A DNA stretch of 64,000 bases. It comes from Rhizoclosmatium globosum. Lineage: Eukaryota > Chytridiomycota > Chytridiomycetes > Chytridiales > Chytriomycetaceae. Position numbers and translations under genes: made by a program. Below the pieces are notes generated by a model. That model was given only the letters and a program-made list of their open reading frames with translations, had not been told where the DNA came from and did not search any database. Shown piece after piece: positions 3,612 through 16,908 of the stretch. Where the stretch lies: positions 1-64,000 of the forward strand of contig MCGO01000120.1 of the NCBI GenBank assembly GCA_002104985.1. The letters are read 5' to 3'. The stretch's first letter is position 1; every line of letters begins with the position of its first letter.

Positions 3612-3935
3612 TTTCATATTCATAGTGATAATAGTTACTTAAAATTCAACTTGAAAATAAACCCGTTTCATATTCATAATGATAATAGTTACATTCAAAA
3701 TTCAACTTGGAAATAAACCCGCTGCTTAAAACCCATATTCCTTCTCTATCCCTCCCCTCTTCCTAGTACACCATCACCACCCACAATAGCTCCAACAAAC
3801 TCATTAATGTATCATCCTCGCCATCCGCATCCGCATCCCTTTCCTCAAAGACATGCTAAAGATCTCCAGGAAAAACTCCGATTTCCCCCGGCTGCGTAGC
3901 TGCATGTGTGCATTTTATAGTCGGGTCGTGCTCAT
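3612..3935 (-). pseudogene. Truncated duplicate of the 3' end of the SH3-tail gene at 14323-16908
   Basis: This stretch matches the 3' flank and terminal coding part of the gene at 14.3-16.9 kb, in the same minus orientation. Shared blocks include the downstream 'ttcaacttggaaataaacccgctgc' element, the 'cccacaatagc...ccaacaaactc' stretch, the 'ccatccgcatc' and 'cctcaaagacatgc' runs, and 'gtgtgcattttatagt'. The coding part is internally deleted and frameshifted, so it makes nothing. A local tandem duplication of about 54 bp (3612-3665 and 3666-3721) has been added. It is a small segmental-duplication relic that now sits on the other side of the retrotransposon from its parent. Confidence 0.75.
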
Positions 3936-5815: not shown

Positions 5816-5959
5816 TTGAAAGTAAAATTCAGTCATGGGACGTTGGCACGCTTCAAGGAAGAGACCCAGAATGTGAAAAATGAATGGCGCAAAGGGTCGA
5901 CTCACAACCCATCTTGGGAGGTTGGATGGGGAAGTGGTGGACTCACGGCTTGCTTTGTC

Positions 5960-6665
5960 TGTGACCGGGATACCGGCTCGGCCGTCGCCAAGCACGTCAG
6001 GTTGTCCATGTCCGACGTAACGGTACCTAGCACGTAGTCAATAGTATCTCACTCATACATAAAAAAGGAAAACATCACCTTATCACCGATCCCCTCATCT
6101 CGGATGCGCCAGTGGAAGTCCCCTCCTTCCCACAGTCCGTCCAGTAGGTCCAAGCCCACATTACAGCGAATCCCTGTCGCAAGCCGTCCTGTTCGCATCC
6201 GCAGTCGATCACTGTCCTCGGTCCACATCCACCGAACCCGTCCAGTGATCCCCGGTTGATCGTTGATCAGTCCCCTATTCCCGTAGCGCGGGTCTGGGTA
6301 GGTGGGAAACCATCCAGCTTTGAAACCCGTACTAACCCTCCTGTCCTTACATGCCTGCAGTCATGGTGCCTCCCTTCCATCCCTTACAGGAGGTCAACCC
6401 GACACTCAGGCTAGACACTACGCTCGAAAGGGGGAGAAACGTACCTAGGCCACCTCGCTCAAGTATGTCGGGTGGCGTCCCGTCCTGTTCCAGACGCCCT
6501 CCACCAACGAAGCCCGTTCGCACGCTGCTTTGTTCACAAGGTAGTTTCTATTTTTACATTTTCCCCTTCCGGTGCTTTCCCACACAGCCACCGGATAATA
6601 AACAAATAAATAAAGAAAGAATAAAAGAGAAGTCCGCAACCCTCCCTCCGTCAGATCCCCTGACA
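5960..6665 (-). repeat. 3' LTR of the chromovirus
   Basis: 706-bp direct repeat identical by eye to 13350-14055. In element orientation it begins TGTCAGGGG and ends GGTCACA, the canonical TG...CA ends. A plus-strand open frame inside it (from 6351) is repeated in the other LTR and is not considered a gene. Confidence 0.95.
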
Positions 6666-6956
6666 GTGGGCCCTTTTCCAAAAAACCCCTAGGTACTCCG
6701 TTACCTAGAGTCTGAAACAAGGAAAGGCTACCGACATGTCCAAACGAAACTAAAAACCAACACAACCAACTCCACCACTCATCCAGCTGCTGAAGAAATG
6801 AAAGGGCTGTTCTCAACTCGCTCCAGGGCGCGAGCCATGAGAACACCTTTCTTGCCATAATTGTATGAGTAGGCGCGTTCGTCCTAGTAGTGCCCTGGTC
6901 ACCGGTGGATCCAAAGATCTTGTATTTAATTACCTAAAAGTGGTGTTAGGAAGGGG
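6666..6956 (-). other. Element 3' untranslated region with polypurine tract
   Basis: Between the stop of the integrase frame and the 3' LTR. Directly before the LTR, in element orientation, the sequence is purine-rich (GGAAAAGGG followed by CCCAC), a plausible polypurine tract for plus-strand priming. Confidence 0.55.
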
Positions 6957-9900
6957 CTACTTGCGGGTAGCCTCATCCTCTTTTTGATTCCTCTTAAGTA
7001 ATCTTAAAGCTCTTTGTTCAACGGCGTCGGTAACTACAGGTGGTTGGATAATCTTTTCTACCGGTTTGGCTTTTGTCTTTCTTTTCTGCTGTTGGACTTC
7101 AGTTGGAGTCGTGTCAATCTCAAGTGGTATTGCTAAGTCACCACTAACTTTCTCAGACATTCGCTCTTTCATCTTTTTGTATTCATTCCATAAAGGCCTA
7201 TACTTTCTTTTATTCTGTTCCCAGAAGTCACTTATAACTTCCGAGGGCATATCCTCTTCTCGTTGCCAATGGCGTTCCTTTCGTCCCCACATCTCCCAAC
7301 TGGTGAGATACTCAAAGGAGGTTGGATTGACAGTCTTTTTAACATCTAAGATTTTATCAATAATTAATTTTGGGTTATCGATGTCTTCTTGACTAAAAGT
7401 AGGGTCAATCTTTGCAAGTAGCCAAGGGCTTGCGCCGGATGCATATTGTTGTTTGTGGGTAGGTCTTCTTGTTAGCTTCTCATCGTCTAACCATTTCTTG
7501 TACTCAGTCTCAAAGTCATCACCTGCTAATTTCATGGCATCCTCTGCACTGTCAACAGGTACTCGCGCTGTGAATGGTCTGAGTCGACTAGCATGCACTG
7601 TTCTAACAACAATTTGGTTACCAGGGAATCGTTCAACGACTCTATATTTTGTTTGAGCGTCTCCTTCCGCTCGGTCAACAATTCTAACAGGTCCAACCCA
7701 TCGTGGAATAAACTTCTTTCCAACTTTAAGGCGTTGCGCTTCAGCAGTAAGGGGAACCGCCAACCAGGCGCGCTCTCCTACTCTAAATTCATGAGAAGGG
7801 TCAACATTACTATTTGTTTGGGTTGCATACTTTTCTTGTTCTTTATTAACATTATCTATAATGACAGATCTAGAAGCTTGTAGGCCTCTTACTAATCTCT
7901 CAGTAAATGATTTGATGTCTTCTGGTGAGGTTTCGCCAACCACCGCTACATCATCAAAGTCACTGTCCATCTCGTTCACCAAAGTCATGGGAGTTTCATC
8001 ATTTGTGGGTTCAAAGTCATTAATTATAAAAGTTTGGATAGGAGCTTCATCAAATAAGAAGGATTCACCAACTGTAAAGAATTGAGTGGCTCCATCCCAC
8101 AAAGGGACACCTCTCACTACAACAAAGTCTTTAGTAGTTGCATCAACTAAAGGTATGATGTAATCCACATATGTTTTAGTGGTAAAGTTATAGGCGCGGT
8201 ACATACAGCGTAAAATACCTGGTGTTCCCAAGAACAGCTGAGGTTCAGGGTTATCTTCAGGGAGACTATCAGGTAAGTTGTTTCCTATTTGTATTAAGTT
8301 CTTTCGGGAGAAGACATTTATTATTCTTTTTGCAGGTTTGTTCTCAAGTACAGTTCTAACTTTGCCATCCGCTGTTGCCGCTCCAATGCGGAAGTTCCCA
8401 ATTCTTGGGATATCTGTCCCATCTTCTAATTTAAAAGTATATGGAACTGGGTAGTCTGTTCGATAATCTTGTTTTGGGTGTAAGTTGTGAATGAGGACTA
8501 TTGCATCTAAGTTGTATTTTTCAAACAGTTTCCTCAATACGCGTTGTGGGTTATATTCTGTTTCGTATCCATAAAGATGTTTGGATAGTTTACTTTGAAC
8601 AAACTGTCGAAAGGATCGGTAGGACGCGATGGCTATTTTAGGGAGTTTTTCCGGGAATGGTTCTTCAACAGTTTCTTGGGAAGTCATAGTGAGTGTCTGT
8701 GGGGTGGGGTCAAGAGAAGTTGGTTTTTCAGTAAGGTCTGCCTTACAGTCAGGTAGGACTTTTTCAATGTCAATGGGGTTAATTCCCAGAAGTAAGTCAG
8801 AAGGTAATCGTGCGTCAAATCCATGGAACATAAAGAATGGTGTTTCTCCTGTAGTGCCATGGGCATGAGTTCTATACGCAAATAAAACATAAGGGAGTAT
8901 GGTTTCCCAATCATCAAAAGTGTATTTATTAATGTAATGTCTTATTCGTTCTGATAAGTTTTTGATAAGTCGCTCGACCATCCCATTTGCTCTGGGCCAG
9001 TAGGGACTGGTGAACGTCTTATAAAATCCAAATCTCCTGGAGAGTTGCAACATAAGATTGCTGTTGAAGGGTTCTCCACCGTCAGAATGTAAGTAAACAG
9101 GGACGCCGGTATGGCAGAATACTTTCTCCACTAACGCCTCAGCGACTGTTTTGGCTTTAAGGTCCGGTATTGGGATGGCTTCTGCCCATTTAGTGAAAGA
9201 GTCTACAACAACCATGATGTATTTGTTACCTGTTTTCTCATCTGGTTTTGGTGGTTGCATAAAGTCAACAAACACTCTTTCCCAAGGGTGTTTTCCAATT
9301 GGAATTGGAAAGACATATCCAGCTTTTTGCCGGAAATCTTTGGCAGTATTACATTCAGGACAAGATTTTATTTCATTTTCTAAATCGTTCTTTACTGTTG
9401 GCCACCAATAGCGATCAAGGAGGGGTGTATAAACTTTCTCAAACCCATAATGTCCAGCAAACAGGTCTGAGTGGAGGAGATCCAGGATTTCTCGTCGCAT
9501 GTTGTCTGGTACACATAACGTCACGCGCGCTGGTTGCTTTCGAACTTGTTGTTTTGAGGCGTTATGGATTTTGAAAAGGAGTCCATTGCTGTCGACGATG
9601 AGGTCCTTTGACAATGCAATTAGGTTATCTTTTGTTAAAGTTGTTTCACCCTCCTTTGGTTCAGGTACTGTACCATACTGGCGAAATCTTAAAAGTGGGC
9701 CAAAGTGGGTATCGGCGAGTTGAAGTTCGCGGATTTCCTTAACTGTTTTACCTGAATTCGGTAATGTTATGTTAAGATTTGTTTCAAAGTTATCAATGTT
9801 TACATCTGAACAGAAGGTATAGTATTGAGGATTCTCTTTATTTGTCCATGATGTTCTGTCAATCAAAATCGATTTATCATTTCCGTGGAAAGTTGTGTGT

Positions 9901-10964
9901 AACTGCAGGGCGACGTGGTCGCTTTCCCATTTTCTTGAGTCGATCCTCACGTCGAAGTGTTTCTTATCAATCCTATTGTCTATAAGTATGTGGTCAACTC
10001 TCCAAAAAGGGTATACTTTATTATCATATGCTTTTAAAAGCCAAGTAGAGCCATGAGGTTCTGGGTGTTTTACTCGAAAGCCGTCGTGGAAGTGTTCAGT
10101 CATTGATTTGAACCAAATTTGTTCTTCGGCGCTGATAGTCGAACCGAAACAATCCACCAAGTTTTCTTTGACGGCAAACGGCATCACATCTTTCTCCGAA
10201 TCTGGGGCAATGTTTAAGTCGCCCATAAGCAGAACAAAGTGTTTCTTACGTAGGTGTAGGCAGTGTCGTTTTAATTTTTCAAGGAAGTTTATTTTAAATA
10301 GATGTCTTTTCTCATCTCTATTCCCACTTGGTGCGTAACAATTGACAATAGCAAAGTCGCCGAGTGTAATGGTAAGGATACGACCCTCCGGGTCAGCCTC
10401 GTCCATCGCACCATACGAGTGAATCTCGCCTTTCAAGTCCTTTCTCCATAGAGTGGCTACTCCGTAATGTCCCGAAAGGTTGTCGCTTATAGCGCAACTC
10501 CAATTTGGAAGGGTTTGCATTTGTGAGAGGAGTTTTGTGGACTTGCGTCCCAGTCGCGTCTCTTGAAAACATATGACACTTCCTCCTAACATGTCTAAGT
10601 ATTGTTCCATAATTGTAGCCTCGGTCTGTTCTTCATTTATTTCGGTATTACTCTTCTTCCAAGCGGTGTATGAATTACTAAAACCATTTAGATTCTGAGA
10701 CGTGAAGTTCAGACTTGGGCATCGCGTTCCTTCGAGTGGTTCGCGGTTTTTTTTTATAGGCCTCAAGAGATGGGATTTTTTTATTGACAGCGCGTAGCTG
10801 GTCGTTCTTCTTTTGTAGTTTCTTCCATATACCTCGCATCGTATCACCAAGTGAGGTAAATTTGTCGATTGTTTGGTTTGCAAGTTTAATAAAAGCAGTT
10901 TTATTGTTTTGAGATAAAGCTTGAACCAATGTTGTTGGTTCTGTCTGAGTACCAACGTTCTCAA
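6957..10964 (-). CDS. Retrotransposon pol part 2: AP-endonuclease-like EEP domain, integrase, chromodomain
   Basis: 1335-codon frame of a Ty3/gypsy element. Residues about 88-358 form an exonuclease-III/APE-type EEP domain with every catalytic signature: N92, E135 (CFQET), Y210, D249/N251 (GDLN), D324 (WRVDHIL) and S348-D349-H350. Next is an H2C2 zinc finger (H498, H505, C535, C538), then the integrase core with D567, D628 and E664, an exact D,D35E spacing. About 340 residues of unassigned sequence follow (roughly 745-1085), then a GPY/F-like module (PRWVGPVRIVDR, about 1087-1098) and a chromodomain (about 1198-1250, YLTSWEMWG...HWQRE). The frame is +1 relative to the upstream RT frame and overlaps its 3' end by 287 nt. 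An EEP domain here is not part of the standard gypsy layout. Confidence 0.9.
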   Translation of the reverse strand: MRTLVLRQNQQHWFKLYLKTIKLLLLNLQTKQSTNLPHLVIRCEVYGRNYKRRTTSYALSIKKSHLLRPIKKNREPLEGTRCPSLNFTSQNLNGFSNSYTAWKKSNTEINEEQTEATIMEQYLDMLGGSVICFQETRLGRKSTKLLSQMQTLPNWSCAISDNLSGHYGVATLWRKDLKGEIHSYGAMDEADPEGRILTITLGDFAIVNCYAPSGNRDEKRHLFKINFLEKLKRHCLHLRKKHFVLLMGDLNIAPDSEKDVMPFAVKENLVDCFGSTISAEEQIWFKSMTEHFHDGFRVKHPEPHGSTWLLKAYDNKVYPFWRVDHILIDNRIDKKHFDVRIDSRKWESDHVALQLHTTFHGNDKSILIDRTSWTNKENPQYYTFCSDVNIDNFETNLNITLPNSGKTVKEIRELQLADTHFGPLLRFRQYGTVPEPKEGETTLTKDNLIALSKDLIVDSNGLLFKIHNASKQQVRKQPARVTLCVPDNMRREILDLLHSDLFAGHYGFEKVYTPLLDRYWWPTVKNDLENEIKSCPECNTAKDFRQKAGYVFPIPIGKHPWERVFVDFMQPPKPDEKTGNKYIMVVVDSFTKWAEAIPIPDLKAKTVAEALVEKVFCHTGVPVYLHSDGGEPFNSNLMLQLSRRFGFYKTFTSPYWPRANGMVERLIKNLSERIRHYINKYTFDDWETILPYVLFAYRTHAHGTTGETPFFMFHGFDARLPSDLLLGINPIDIEKVLPDCKADLTEKPTSLDPTPQTLTMTSQETVEEPFPEKLPKIAIASYRSFRQFVQSKLSKHLYGYETEYNPQRVLRKLFEKYNLDAIVLIHNLHPKQDYRTDYPVPYTFKLEDGTDIPRIGNFRIGAATADGKVRTVLENKPAKRIINVFSRKNLIQIGNNLPDSLPEDNPEPQLFLGTPGILRCMYRAYNFTTKTYVDYIIPLVDATTKDFVVVRGVPLWDGATQFFTVGESFLFDEAPIQTFIINDFEPTNDETPMTLVNEMDSDFDDVAVVGETSPEDIKSFTERLVRGLQASRSVIIDNVNKEQEKYATQTNSNVDPSHEFRVGERAWLAVPLTAEAQRLKVGKKFIPRWVGPVRIVDRAEGDAQTKYRVVERFPGNQIVVRTVHASRLRPFTARVPVDSAEDAMKLAGDDFETEYKKWLDDEKLTRRPTHKQQYASGASPWLLAKIDPTFSQEDIDNPKLIIDKILDVKKTVNPTSFEYLTSWEMWGRKERHWQREEDMPSEVISDFWEQNKRKYRPLWNEYKKMKERMSEKVSGDLAIPLEIDTTPTEVQQQKRKTKAKPVEKIIQPPVVTDAVEQRALRLLKRNQKEDEATRK

Positions 10965-12501
10965 ATTCTTTCTCTTTTCGTCCTAAATATACTCTTGATA
11001 GAGTATCGGCGACAATTTGCGTGTCGCCGGGGACATGGACCAGTGTCAAGTCGTAATGCGAAAGGGCATAGGCCCATCTTGAGAACCGTCCTGTAAGTGC
11101 TCCATTTTTGAAAAGGCTTAATAAGGCGCTATGATCGGTTTCGACAGTCGCCGGTTGGTTGAAGATATATCGATCGAAACATGTTACTGCCCATATCACC
11201 GCGAGCCCTTCGCGATCTGTATTCGAGTAACGTTTTTCGACGTCTGTAAGTGTTCTGGATATAAATGCGACCGGTTTACGGTCAGTTTTCTTGTTTGATT
11301 CTCCTTGAATAAAGAGAGCTCCGCCGAGTCCCGTGCCGGACGCATCGCACTCAATCACTAGTTTATCACCTTCTTTTGGAATTGTCATAAGCGAATCCTT
11401 ACAAAGTTCGCGTATAAGTGTATCGAAGGCGTGTTGACACCAAGGGTCCCAAATAAACTTTACACCGTCTTTTATTAAATTATAAAGAGGTGCTGATATA
11501 TTAGCAAAATCTTTAATAAAACGTCGGAAGTATTGCGCGAACCCTAAGAATCGTTGCATTTTGGGGACGCTTGTTGGCCGTTCCCAATTTCGTAGGTCCT
11601 GCATTTTACTTGGATCTTTTCTGAGGCCGTCCTCGGAGATTACATGTCCTAAGAAAGGGAGTGAAGTATGGAAGAGTTTACATTTACTTGGTTTCAATTT
11701 TAAGTTAAACTGTTCGAGTCTACTGAAAATCTCTTCTAAGTGTTTGAAGTGTTCGTCAACCGAGTCACTAAACACTATAATGTCGTCGACGTAAACCATG
11801 GCGAAGACCCATTTAAGGCCGGAGAGCACTCGATCCATTGCGCGCTGAAATGTTGGGGGTGAGTTAATTAATCCAAAAGGCATAACCTTGAATTCGTAAA
11901 GTCCTTGACTGGATATGAACGCCGTTTTGTGTCTGTCTTCTTCAGCGACAGGGATTTGCCAAAAACCCGAGAGTAAATCAAAACAACTAAAAATCTTTTT
12001 ATTGCTAACAGCGTCGAAGATTTCCTCAATTCGAGGGAGGGGGTATCGGTCGGGTATGGTCATGGCGTTGAGTTTTCTGAAGTCAACACAAAATCGCCAA
12101 GATCCATCCGACTTTTTCGCAAGTACTACTGGTGATGCGAATTGGGATTTAGATGGTTCAATTACGTTTCCTGTGATCATCTTACCAGTGTGGTCTTTAA
12201 GTATAGCAGTCCTTCCCAAACCTTCAGGATATGGGTTGGTATGTGGTATCTTTGCGCCTGGTTTGAGTTTAATTTCATGTGGTGGTAGTCTTTCCGTACC
12301 CGTAACAATGCCTTCGCGGAAGACGTTCGCGAAGCGCCGTATCATAGTGTCCATTCGTGCGAGTACGTCATCACTGAAAGTTCCAGAGATATGGGAGTGT
12401 GGAATCTTTTCCCAAACTTCATCATCCGTCAATGTACTTGCCGGCGGTAAGTAATTGAGATGATCTTCCCGACTCTTATCTTTTGTTGGTATAGAGTTCA
12501 T
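10678..12501 (-). CDS. Retrotransposon pol part 1: reverse transcriptase and RNase H
   Basis: 607-codon frame. The reverse transcriptase runs from about residue 75 to 320, with SPVVLAKKSDGSWRFCVDFRKLN, the SCFDLLSGFWQI palm strand, FGLINSP and the catalytic YVDD (237-240). RNase H follows with ECDAS (D386), E431, D456 and the ADTLSR motif (D499), so all four acidic residues are present. The terminal 100 residues, after RNase H, are Lys-rich linker. No protease motif (D-S/T-G) precedes RT, and the frame opens only about 75 residues before it. The Met at 12501 may not be a true start, because gag-pol elements usually translate pol by fusion or processing. Confidence 0.92.
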   Translation of the reverse strand: MNSIPTKDKSREDHLNYLPPASTLTDDEVWEKIPHSHISGTFSDDVLARMDTMIRRFANVFREGIVTGTERLPPHEIKLKPGAKIPHTNPYPEGLGRTAILKDHTGKMITGNVIEPSKSQFASPVVLAKKSDGSWRFCVDFRKLNAMTIPDRYPLPRIEEIFDAVSNKKIFSCFDLLSGFWQIPVAEEDRHKTAFISSQGLYEFKVMPFGLINSPPTFQRAMDRVLSGLKWVFAMVYVDDIIVFSDSVDEHFKHLEEIFSRLEQFNLKLKPSKCKLFHTSLPFLGHVISEDGLRKDPSKMQDLRNWERPTSVPKMQRFLGFAQYFRRFIKDFANISAPLYNLIKDGVKFIWDPWCQHAFDTLIRELCKDSLMTIPKEGDKLVIECDASGTGLGGALFIQGESNKKTDRKPVAFISRTLTDVEKRYSNTDREGLAVIWAVTCFDRYIFNQPATVETDHSALLSLFKNGALTGRFSRWAYALSHYDLTLVHVPGDTQIVADTLSRVYLGRKEKEFENVGTQTEPTTLVQALSQNNKTAFIKLANQTIDKFTSLGDTMRGIWKKLQKKNDQLRAVNKKIPSLEAYKKKPRTTRRNAMPKSELHVSESKWF

Positions 12502-13349
12502 GAGGTATAGAGTTCATGATGAGATTAGAAATGTGGTCTTCGCCTATTTCAGTTGTAGACGTCAAAGATCAACGGTGTTCGGGGTGATTTCTATCGATAA
12601 AGTAGCGAATAGATTTTATCAAAGTTTAAGACTTTGGGTTGTTCATAGACTGTGTTGACAAATTCGATTCATTCGTTACTATACCACAACAGTTGTCATC
12701 CAGCGTTTCGTCTTCGTCGATAGTTAGCGTTTTGAAGTCAAGGGCTGTTTCTGAATAGTCAGTTTGTTTTTATTCAAGAAATAATAGGTAAGATGTGAAA
12801 GAAAGGGAAGAAGAGGACTTGTGTTCCTCTGGCTGGTCAGAATATTCCGACGTACTCAAAAATTTCATTTGTCATTTTCTTCCTTTACATCCTTGTCAAC
12901 CAGACAAGGCTCAAGTGATTCATATTCGTAAAATAAAGAGTTTATTTGATTTGTAAAGTGTAAAAGGTGTTAGGGTAGGTGAGGGGAGTTGGAATAAGCC
13001 TGCTCCTTCCATCCTCCAGTCACTATAGTCTTGTGTTTGTTGCGTTACTGAATCGTTTTGGAATCAATTTCGAGTTGTATGGTGTTGTAGGTGTAGTCGT
13101 TGTTGTTGTAGTTGCTGGTGATCCTCGATGATTAGTCATCTATTTGTCAGTGTCATTACGACACCATAGTTTCATCATTTATAAAGGTAGGCCGGAGCCC
13201 TGTATAGAGGCGGAGTAAACTCAACGCAGTGCGGAGCTAAGCTCAACGCTATAAATAATCATCTCGACGGCCCGAAGGCCGGAGGAATAAGACCAGCGAT
13301 CGACGGACCAATCGTCTCGCTACACTCGCATTTGGTGTTGGGCCCCCAC
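12502..13349 (-). other. 5' internal region of the element: putative primer site, no gag or protease frame
   Basis: About 850 bp between the 5' LTR and the RT frame, where gag and protease should be. No minus-strand frame over 60 codons exists, and I see no CCHC knuckle. One base after the LTR, in element orientation, is TGGGGGCCCAACACC, a TGG-initiated 15-mer that fits a tRNA 3' end ending in CCA and is the likely primer-binding site; I cannot name the tRNA. A short direct repeat of 'tatagagttcatga' flanks 12500-12530. The region looks like the scar of a deletion or a non-autonomous design. Confidence 0.6.
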
Positions 13350-14055
13350 TGTGACCGGGATACCGGCTCGGCCGTCGCCAAGCACGTCAGGTTGTCCATG
13401 TCCGACGTAACGGTACCTAGCACGTAGTCAATAGTATCTCACTCATACATAAAAAAGGAAAACATCACCTTATCACCGATCCCCTCATCTCGGATGCGCC
13501 AGTGGAAGTCCCCTCCTTCCCACAGTCCGTCCAGTAGGTCCAAGCCCACATTACAGCGAATCCCTGTCGCAAGCCGTCCTGTTCGCATCCGCAGTCGATC
13601 ACTGTCCTCGGTCCACATCCACCGAACCCGTCCAGTGATCCCCGGTTGATCGTTGATCAGTCCCCTATTCCCGTAGCGCGGGTCTGGGTAGGTGGGAAAC
13701 CATCCAGCTTTGAAACCCGTACTAACCCTCCTGTCCTTACATGCCTGCAGTCATGGTGCCTCCCTTCCATCCCTTACAGGAGGTCAACCCGACACTCAGG
13801 CTAGACACTACGCTCGAAAGGGGGAGAAACGTACCTAGGCCACCTCGCTCAAGTATGTCGGGTGGCGTCCCGTCCTGTTCCAGACGCCCTCCACCAACGA
13901 AGCCCGTTCGCACGCTGCTTTGTTCACAAGGTAGTTTCTATTTTTACATTTTCCCCTTCCGGTGCTTTCCCACACAGCCACCGGATAATAAACAAATAAA
14001 TAAAGAAAGAATAAAAGAGAAGTCCGCAACCCTCCCTCCGTCAGATCCCCTGACA
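13350..14055 (-). repeat. 5' LTR of the chromovirus
   Basis: Identical copy of 5960-6665. Its outer edge (14055) is followed by TGTC, matching the four bases before 5960. Confidence 0.95.
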
Positions 14056-14322
14056 TGTCGAGTAAAGAAATTGAATCAATTTTGTCATTTAAATTTTCCT
14101 GTCCTCAAATCGAGCTCTACGAACTCTCATTTGATGTAGTTCCAAGGATCTTCCGCGTCCAACAAATATTTCAGCGATTCAGACTCTGGAAATTGCACCT
14201 TGCACACTCAGCCTCTCCGTTTGTTTTTTTCTTTTCTCACACATTTGTCATTTCATATTCATGGTAGTTACATTCAAAATTCAACTTGGAAATAAAACCC
14301 GCTGCTTAAACCCCACATTCCA

Positions 14323-16908
14323 TCACTGTCCCTCCCCTCTCCCCAACACACCCTCACTACCCACAATAGCACCAATAAACTCCTTGCCAACCCCCTCCCT
14401 ATCCGCCCCATCCTCCGAAACCCCAACAACAAGTCGACTAGCTCCACCAACAACCTTCCTCAAAACCCGTCTGGGTACAAATCCTTGAACAACAAGCCCT
14501 TCCCTAGACCGCGTCAAATTCACAACTTTCACTGAACCATCTTCGCCATCCGCATCCACATCCCCTTCCTCAAAGACATGCAAAAGATCCCCAGGAACAA
14601 CTCCGATTTCCCCGGGTTGTGTAGGAACATGTGGAAGCACTGCTGCGTGTGTGCATTTTATGGTTGGGTCGGGTAACGCCCATGTTACCCTCGGTTTTTC
14701 GAATTGCGCGATGAGAGAACGTGTGCTAGGTCTGAGTGCGACTGTTTTCAGAGCTGGTTTGAGTGTTTCGACTCTGGTGGGTGTGGAGTCGGGGATTGGG
14801 GGTTCGGACTGGACGATGATTTCGGTTTCGTTTGTTGAAGATGGCTCACTTGTTGGAGGTTCATGAGATGAACTTGATTGATCATTATGAGGCTCGCTGG
14901 TTGTAACTGGTTTTGTGGGTGTAAAGTCCTGGACAGCTTGCGTATCTTCCATCCGAGAGTCTATAGAATCGATATCTTCATTTGATTCTACAGGTACAGT
15001 AGATGATGCTACTGGCTCAACAGCGACAGACTCTTCATCGTTGTTATTGATAGATCCTGGTGTCCCAGAATCCTCTGCTTGATCGACAGGCAGATCAATC
15101 GACAGCTTGGATACTTCAACAGACTCAGAGGCATCGCATTCTTCGACTGCATCAACAGGAGCACTAGTAGGCGATGAAGCCTCCGACGAACTTCCGCTCT
15201 CCCCACCACTTATCCGCATCAAGTTCGCTTCCCTCACAGGCATACTAGACCCCAACTCCTCAAACTCCCCATTTCTTGGTGTAGAACCTCCAGCAGGAGA
15301 CGAAACCTCTGACGAGCTCCGACTCCCACCTACAGAAACCCGTCCAACCAATCCATCCAGAATCTGATCAACAAATTCTAATTCACCCTCAAACTCTTCC
15401 ATTTTATCGTCACCCGTCACAATATCGTCATCACTCTTTCTCATACCATCTTCAACAACAGCAACAGCCTCATCCACATCAACCACAACCTTCAACACCA
15501 TAAACCTCCTCACCTCCTCCTCAAATTCCAGCCTCTCCCTCCAAAACACATCCCTCTCCCTCCAAAACTCCACGCGCTCCTTCTCAAACTCCACCTTCCG
15601 CGTCCCAAACACTTCCTTCTCCTCCTCCAGTTTCTTCCACTCTTCCTCCAACCCACCCACGTCCGAATGAAAAGCATCGACAAATGAAGAAGGCGGGGAC
15701 GTCTCTGAGAGGGCTTTCATGAGTTGCGCGTGTTGATGCACGAGCGTGTCTAATAATTTGACATCGATTTCAGAGGCTGCTGAGGAAGAGGACGCGGAGT
15801 GTGTGGATGAGGCGGGAGAGGAAGGTGTTGACGTGCCTCTAGTAGATTTAGAAGACGGAGACGTGGGGATACCAGATTTCGTGCGAGATGGAAGTGGAGA
15901 AGGGGGTGGAGTTATATAAGAAGACGCCCGAGTAGTCAAGGTAGTCATTGGAGGCTTCAGGCTGTTATTCCTGTACACCGAGGTACGAACGGAAGAAGGA
16001 GAAGAATAGGGAGTGGGGGTTGTAGAAGGGGAATTAATAAGAGTGCTAGCAGTGGAAGGAACCCGTCGACGAGTGCTTGTAAATGAAGGAGAGATGACTT
16101 TGTTGGTACTCTCATCCTCGTCGATCCATCCAACACCATCGACCCAATTCGCACTTGTACCCTTTGATTGTCTTATTTTACCGGTGCATTTTTTGCATGG
16201 CAGTCCATGATGGTCCTGCGATCCTCTTGTTGAAGTGCTTGAGGCTGCAGCTATGTCCCAATGCCATCAGTATGCTCCCACCAAATTAAAAGAGAATAAT
16301 ACATACTCATGAATCCTTTAACACCCTCTTGACAACATCCCACCTTCTTTACAAGTTCGAGCAAGTGACCTTTCACACTCCTGAGTTCCCTCTCGACATC
16401 CTTCCTCCTAACCACTGCATCCCTACAAGCATCATCGGCCTGTTCAAGTCCCCGATTAGTCACACTACCACTTATTACAGATTAATACACACACCTCCTT
16501 CCGCAATTCAGCCAGCTTCAACACCTCCTTTTCCTTCGCATTCACGTCCCTTTTCAGCCTTGCCACCCGATCGACAAGCACATTCGAATCGGCAATTGCG
16601 CGATCGAGCGCACTCACAATCGCCGAATGCGCACTGGAAACACTCGAAAGCGACGAAAGAAGCGTCGAAACAACTCGCTCAACTTGGAAAACTTGAACGA
16701 ATCCGTCGTTGGAACTTGGAGAAAAGGGTTCGAAGCCAGCGAGAAGAAGAATTGAATTGAGTCGGTTTGTGGTTGAAGTGCCAGTGCTAGGAAGGTTGCC
16801 AGGAGCGTTGCTAGGAGGTACTTGGCTCAGGAAGGGACTCTCACTGCGAAGCTGGTGGATCGAGAATGTGTCACAGTCCTCCTCGTCAGACGAGTACGAT
16901 GAATACAT
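14323..16908 (-). CDS. Coiled-coil and Ser-rich protein with C-terminal SH3-like domain
   Basis: Exons 16908-16495, 16439-16307 and 16250-14323 keep frame and give 824 aa. The N-terminal 140 residues include a predicted coiled coil continuing through exon 2 (VARLKRDV...VERELRSVKGHLLELVKKV). Exon 3 starts with a PCKKC motif, followed by a long Ser/Pro/Thr-rich disordered region and a Glu-rich helix (KLEEEKEVFGTRKVEFEKERVEF). The last 110 residues resemble an SH3 fold: AAVLPHVPTQPGEIGVVPGD, then GLVVQGFVPRRVL. SH3-tailed coiled-coil proteins commonly work as cytoskeletal or polarity scaffolds, but I cannot name an orthologue. A degenerate copy of the 3' end lies at 3612-3935. Confidence 0.75.

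Follow-up and report, generated by a model that had tools for sequence, protein, structure and literature searches.

An ExoIII/APE1-type domain within Pol of Ty3/gypsy-type LTR retrotransposons in Rhizoclosmatium globosum

Ty3/gypsy long terminal repeat (LTR) retrotransposons (Metaviridae) encode reverse transcriptase (RT), RNase H and integrase in that order and leave short target duplications outside their LTRs, whereas long interspersed nuclear elements (LINEs) place an endonuclease/exonuclease/phosphatase (EEP) domain ahead of RT and have no integrase. The APE-type domains of LINEs are target nickases. Here we describe a Ty3/gypsy-type element in 64,000 nucleotides of Rhizoclosmatium globosum (contig MCGO01000120.1, positions 1 to 64,000 of the forward strand; hereafter the window) that shares its domain order, LTRs, short target duplications and, in the longer copy L010, a CCHC knuckle with the Metaviridae but differs from them in carrying an ExoIII/APE1-type domain within Pol. 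It resembles LINEs in being a retroelement with an EEP superfamily nuclease that has the same eight catalytic residues, and it differs from them in having an integrase and LTRs. Other LTR elements have likewise gained an enzymatic module, such as a dUTPase, a DNA methyltransferase or the enzymes of the bdelloid elements Juno and Vesta. In the accessible portions of PMC5408684 and PMC6338049, the third open reading frame (ORF3) of Juno and Vesta encodes a DEDDy exonuclease and a GDSL esterase, the DEDDy domain having been gained at least twice; these are different enzymes, on a separate ORF3 rather than between RNase H and integrase. The corresponding portions of PMC9926174, PMC4112212 and PMC3441728 name EEP for LINEs, a legend in PMC5348765 lists EEP among the parts with the element not specified, and PMC3248453 attributes the many additional domains of certain fungal elements to multiple insertions. 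No EEP domain in an LTR element appears in these portions of the above articles or of PMC2864245 and PMC5741268. Searches of an open-access paper library likewise returned no such architecture, with subscription papers and Repbase outside their scope, and we claim no priority.

The element occupies window positions 5960-14055 on the minus strand, with paired LTRs and a 4-bp target duplication; all of its parts given below are on that strand. Its frame 6957-10982 matches the EEP family PF03372 at residues 96-356, over profile positions 3-225 of 225 (38.8 bits, cut-off 24.5, E 1.1e-9), and the H2C2 zinc-binding domain (Integrase_H2C2; 9339-9512, E 7e-16) and core (rve; 8997-9290, E 1.1e-9, D,D35E counted by eye) of an integrase follow in the same frame. 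Upstream, RT (RVT_1; 11638-12117, E 8.4e-38) and RNase H (RT_RNaseH; 11053-11367, E 1.2e-26, with RT_RNaseH_2 also matched) lie on a separate frame, 10678-12513, leaving the RNase H and EEP of the window copy in different frames. The 5' LTR (13350-14055) begins TGTCAGGGG and ends GGTCACA, and it is identical to the 3' LTR (5960-6665) at 706 of 706 positions; comparison of LTRs and flanks gives the duplication as GACA on both the 5' side (14056-14059) and the 3' side (5956-5959). A preliminary description of this DNA had proposed a complete EEP domain between RNase H and integrase, and an intact domain of the apurinic/apyrimidinic (AP) endonuclease type in a young LTR element; the PF03372 match, the complete catalytic set and the identical 706-bp LTRs agree with both proposals. 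The domain limits it gave, 9891-10703, are better replaced by 9906-10712, because the first strand (LNFTSQN) starts at about 10712. The catalytic residues it listed are present, numbered 6 lower than in the stop-to-stop frame, but the catalytic Asn is the N of SQN (residue 97) and not its N92. The normal integrase is likewise matched, whereas the chromodomain is only a possible one (7218-7364; 14.7 bits, below the cut-off of 25.1), and Pfam listed none for the L020 C-terminal piece. The earlier designation of the element as a chromovirus is tentative.

The best relatives of the window EEP in the PDB are Bacillus ExoA (E 7.9e-16), plant ARP, H. pylori XthA, archaeal ExoIII and APE1, and no LINE endonuclease is among the 53 PDB sequences that match it at E up to 1. 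The EEPs of L036 and L037 have archaeal ExoIII as their first match, followed by other ExoIII-type proteins and APE1. In contrast, the one LINE endonuclease tested, L049, matches human L1-EN first and ExoIII weakly. As judged from sequence, the EEP of the LTR elements is nearer to AP endonucleases (ExoIII/APE1) than to LINE endonucleases, as had been suggested beforehand. The predicted structure of the domain is of moderate confidence (pLDDT 64.9, pTM 0.73) and aligns to AP endonucleases; the five-row alignment behind the model contains ExoIII-type proteins, and the N-terminus of the model is truncated and aligns poorly. No LINE endonuclease occurs in the 50 Foldseek rows shown for the model, which excludes nothing. 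The domain shares its fold and catalytic residues with APE1, ExoIII and ExoA, but it differs from them in lying inside a retroelement polyprotein and in its low identity (24-28% to four bacterial ExoIII-type proteins; 19-24% in structural alignments). By family the EEP would be an AP endonuclease, and AP-site cleavage is predicted.

The domain is not peculiar to this copy. A DNA search of the genome (56.9 Mb on 420 contigs) returned 13 matches, 11 of them at 97-100% identity over the whole query and two partial at 71%. Searches by domain family returned 83 matches for EEP, 60 for the integrase zinc domain and 65 for RNase H, and clustering of 83, 60 and 62 of these, respectively, produced 101 clusters: 37 RNase H-EEP-integrase, four EEP-RNase H-integrase, five EEP-integrase, 13 RNase H-integrase, 35 EEP alone, six RNase H alone and one integrase alone. 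Two of the 13 RNase H-integrase clusters (C55 and C189) contain EEP by DNA match; altogether, 48 of the 59 clusters that combine integrase with RNase H or EEP carry EEP and 11 do not. The order RT-RNase H-EEP-integrase, which the preliminary description had proposed to seek in other copies, is confirmed by single-frame Pfam matches in L028, L029, L030, L034, L035 and L036, whereas L037, L038 and L039 have the order EEP-RT-RNase H-integrase. The integrase of L034-L037 is seen as its zinc domain only, the fetched stretch ending soon after, and in L039 the matches to RT, to the integrase core and to one RNase H model all fall below cut-off. C347 and C411 are grouped with L039, and C124 and C54 with the RNase H-EEP-integrase families, by spacing only. 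EEP thus has two placements in this genome. A late insertion into one copy is ruled out, since the 11 copies at 97-100% and divergent families carry EEP, as is a LINE fragment nested in a gypsy copy, since EEP is in frame in several families and of AP-endonuclease type. Copies without the domain but with an insertion scar were also looked for: the sole EEP-less near-copy seen, L052 (one of the 11 clusters), looked like a pre-insertion allele but is an EEP-family copy that has lost 1172 bp, starting within the domain. Outside this genome, the 1615-aa protein P0004 has an RNase H match above cut-off, RT and integrase zinc matches below it and an EEP at the C-terminus, a third placement that follows the weak integrase match. 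Protein searches, one of which was limited to scoring the 7995 candidates with the most words in common, yielded no LTR-type protein with EEP besides P0004, and single-protein scans of viral contigs yielded no EEP-bearing LTR-type relatives. The 959-aa protein P0001 joins an ExoIII-type domain to an RT with Pfam domains that we take to be of group II intron maturase type.

RT-RNase H trees separate clade A (the window element and its kin) from clade B (L034-L039) by EEP-less elements. A single RT clade of EEP-bearing elements is rejected by the approximately unbiased (AU) test (p 2.85e-9; 16 rows versus 7), with the EEP-bearing group named after the tree had been seen; L016, L017, L018, L052 and P0004 were omitted by choice, as were copies in which one frame covers less than 85% of the RT-RNase H profile. 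Within this genome, EEP occurs in two distinct gypsy lineages and in two placements, which extends the initial view of a single element. The EEP tree, which omits the L018, L047, L048, L058, ARP and L1-EN rows, rejects one clade of RNase H-EEP-integrase domains (p 0.006) but does not reject one clade of all LTR EEPs of this genome (p 0.154; 15 rows versus 10). Because the latter is not rejected, EEP may also have been exchanged between elements, and either separate captures or such exchange would fit. The proposal that the domain was captured from a gene of this host fared less well. A bacterial ExoIII-type query has 44 genome matches, 43 of which are in element clusters and one in an APE2-like gene, named by eye and apparently intron-split. 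Matches to PF01261, the family that includes EndoIV, are also present, and no APE1/ExoIII-type gene was seen outside elements in genome searches that ignore introns and could therefore miss a split APE1 gene.

Synonymous differences are saturated in the 11 family pairs compared (proportion of synonymous differences, pS, 0.73-0.93; synonymous distance computable for one RT pair only), and the corresponding nonsynonymous proportion, pN, is 0.10-0.44 for EEP and 0.06-0.27 for RT-RNase H; these values point to an EEP domain that is under purifying selection. The catalytic N, E, Y, D, N, D, D and H are kept in 17 of 17 LTR rows, chosen for a complete one-frame domain (P0004 plus 16 from this genome, several of which are nearly identical to one another). 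The LINE rows L040, L048 and L049 hold the same residues, so the set marks the EEP superfamily and not the AP-endonuclease branch. Pol tolerates accessory domains elsewhere, and the EEP might be a catalytically inactive, nucleic-acid-binding or spacer module, but retention of the eight residues in every chosen row, across families with saturated synonymous sites, makes such an idle domain very improbable.

Tentatively, and at somewhat less than probable strength, we propose that the EEP is an element-encoded AP endonuclease and 3'-end repair enzyme that acts on the element's complementary DNA (cDNA). It would travel in the particle alongside the other Pol products, cut abasic sites in the element's own cDNA and clear blocked or extra 3' ends, whereupon the cDNA could be completed and joined by integrase. 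Where other LTR elements rely on the host for this repair step, the EEP would provide it from within the element, and an AP endonuclease of its own would make an Apn1/base-excision-type step independent of the host. The accessible portions of PMC5741268 tabulate a more than 2-fold cDNA reduction for yeast Apn1, in a column read as Ty1, and report that base excision repair aids HIV-1. The enzyme might instead serve counter-defence by repairing or removing cDNA that host deamination and uracil excision have damaged, much as a viral dUTPase might. Uracil excision leaves AP sites, and an arms race would fit the presence of EEP in separate lineages; we consider this quite improbable.

Enzymes of the ExoIII family combine 3'-5' exonuclease with RNase H activity. 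The domain could provide extra exonuclease or RNase H-like activity for primer removal or strand-end trimming with no preference for abasic sites, and in most EEP-bearing clusters RNase H is its neighbor. The position of the AP-pocket Trp, W280 in APE1 numbering, is occupied by W in all 10 clade A rows, by F, M or A in the six clade B rows, and by F in P0004; clade A EEPs also share the EGR and WR(I/V/L)D motifs with APE1/ExoIII/ExoA. The lack of this Trp in clade B favors RNA/DNA processing or 3' trimming, a near rival of the cDNA repair role, especially in clade B; its retention in clade A and the intact RNase H of the element itself weigh against such processing, which we regard as unlikely.

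The insertions look integrase-made. In the window family, five of the eight LTR pairs compared are identical and those of L009, L012 and L013 differ, and 4-bp duplications flank seven of the eight copies, L009 having none. Because L012 and L013 have the same flanks, there are six distinct clade A duplications: GACA, GAAC, AACT, AAAT, GACG and GAAG (flanks of the window copy, L010, L012, L016, L017 and L018). LTR checks outside this family cover the C387 family of clade B, whose LTRs are about 482 bp long and whose three copies are flanked by the duplications GTAG, CTAC and TTAC, and the EEP-first element at C368, which has a matching repeat pair at 90809-91136 and 101261-101588. Read by eye after the fact in these small samples, six of six clade A duplications fit R-A-(A/C)-N (RAMN) and three of three in clade B fit N-T-A-(C/G). 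Such patterns could reflect a nuclease that, by nicking or recognizing abasic or damaged sites in the target DNA, directs integrase to them, as APE-type domains nick LINE targets, and EEP adjoins integrase in most EEP-bearing clusters. However, integrase alone would leave 4-bp duplications and full LTR ends, the clade A 3' flanks of L011 and L014 (TTGG) and L015 (ATTC), whose 5' sides were not seen, misfit the pattern, EEP is far from integrase in EEP-first elements, and the nuclease is of AP-endonuclease and not LINE type. We regard a target-site role as unlikely, and a role on cDNA is preferred to that of a target nickase because integration keeps the hallmarks of integrase and because the position of EEP varies. 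At L021 5264-6403, the long copy on C113, with a GAAC duplication, seems to lie within a gene that we take to be aspartokinase-like.

Several observations weigh against the cDNA repair role. Ten naturally EEP-less gypsy clusters coexist in the same genome, and in each of the 11 pairs compared, which overlap in members, EEP has changed faster than RT-RNase H. A target role could also account for the RAMN pattern that the six clade A duplications share. Given the replacement of Trp at the W280 position, clade B and P0004 may not prefer AP sites. Finally, the APE2-like gene and the PF01261 (EndoIV-type) matches indicate that the host is not wholly without AP endonucleases.

When the longer copy L021/L010 is compared with the window copy (tblastn, E up to 1), its gag and protease pieces do not match the leader (12770-13349), and no gag zinc knuckle or protease was found in the window copy with these pieces; the pre-RT stretch 12130-12769 is the sole part that matches the second L021/L010 piece (residues 759-988; tblastn). 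L010 itself has a CCHC zinc knuckle (29.1 bits) and an Asp_protease_2 match under cut-off (18.2 against 24.3 bits). Since L011, L014, L015 and L017 match most of the window leader's length at 84-91%, the gag-less form seems common to several copies, which suggests that these and the window copy are a non-autonomous subfamily, mobilized by longer copies, that retains EEP and integrase. An uninterrupted frame runs from before RT to beyond the integrase core in L010 and L018 and from within RT onward in L015. RNase H and EEP share one frame in these three copies; the second pol frame described earlier exists in the window copy and some other copies but not in them. Frame breaks occur in or around these parts in L009, L011-L014, L016, L017, L019 and L031-L033, and a single frame spans the fetched stretch in L028, L029, L030, L034, L035 and L036 of other families. 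For a candidate primer site, a 14-mer complement occurs at 10 places, nine in other copies of the element and one in the window copy, with no tRNA recognized. A 162-aa frame after pol (6445-6933) enters the 3' LTR and is open at 157-163 aa in L009, L010, L012, L013, L017 and L018. Diverged direct repeats (85-86%) at window positions 3715-3908 and 14295-14633, the second inside a long open frame, flank the element and are possibly related host genes. C109/C372 and C79/C68 have the same genes or same-flank insertions on two contigs; the assembly seems to contain both haplotypes for some contigs, so there are more loci than insertions.

We consider it nearly an even question whether Pol of LTR retrotransposons has acquired an AP endonuclease domain on repeated occasions, in up to three positions, with repair of abasic or blocked cDNA as an element-encoded step of replication. 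The DNA-cutting enzyme usually separates integrase-bearing LTR elements from nuclease-bearing LINEs; here, elements whose insertions look like the work of integrase also carry an AP endonuclease-type domain. If the EEP acts on cDNA, then abasic or blocked cDNA would limit LTR elements enough to favor the same solution in separate lineages, and these elements would offer a natural system for studying why host base excision repair benefits Ty1 and lentiviruses.

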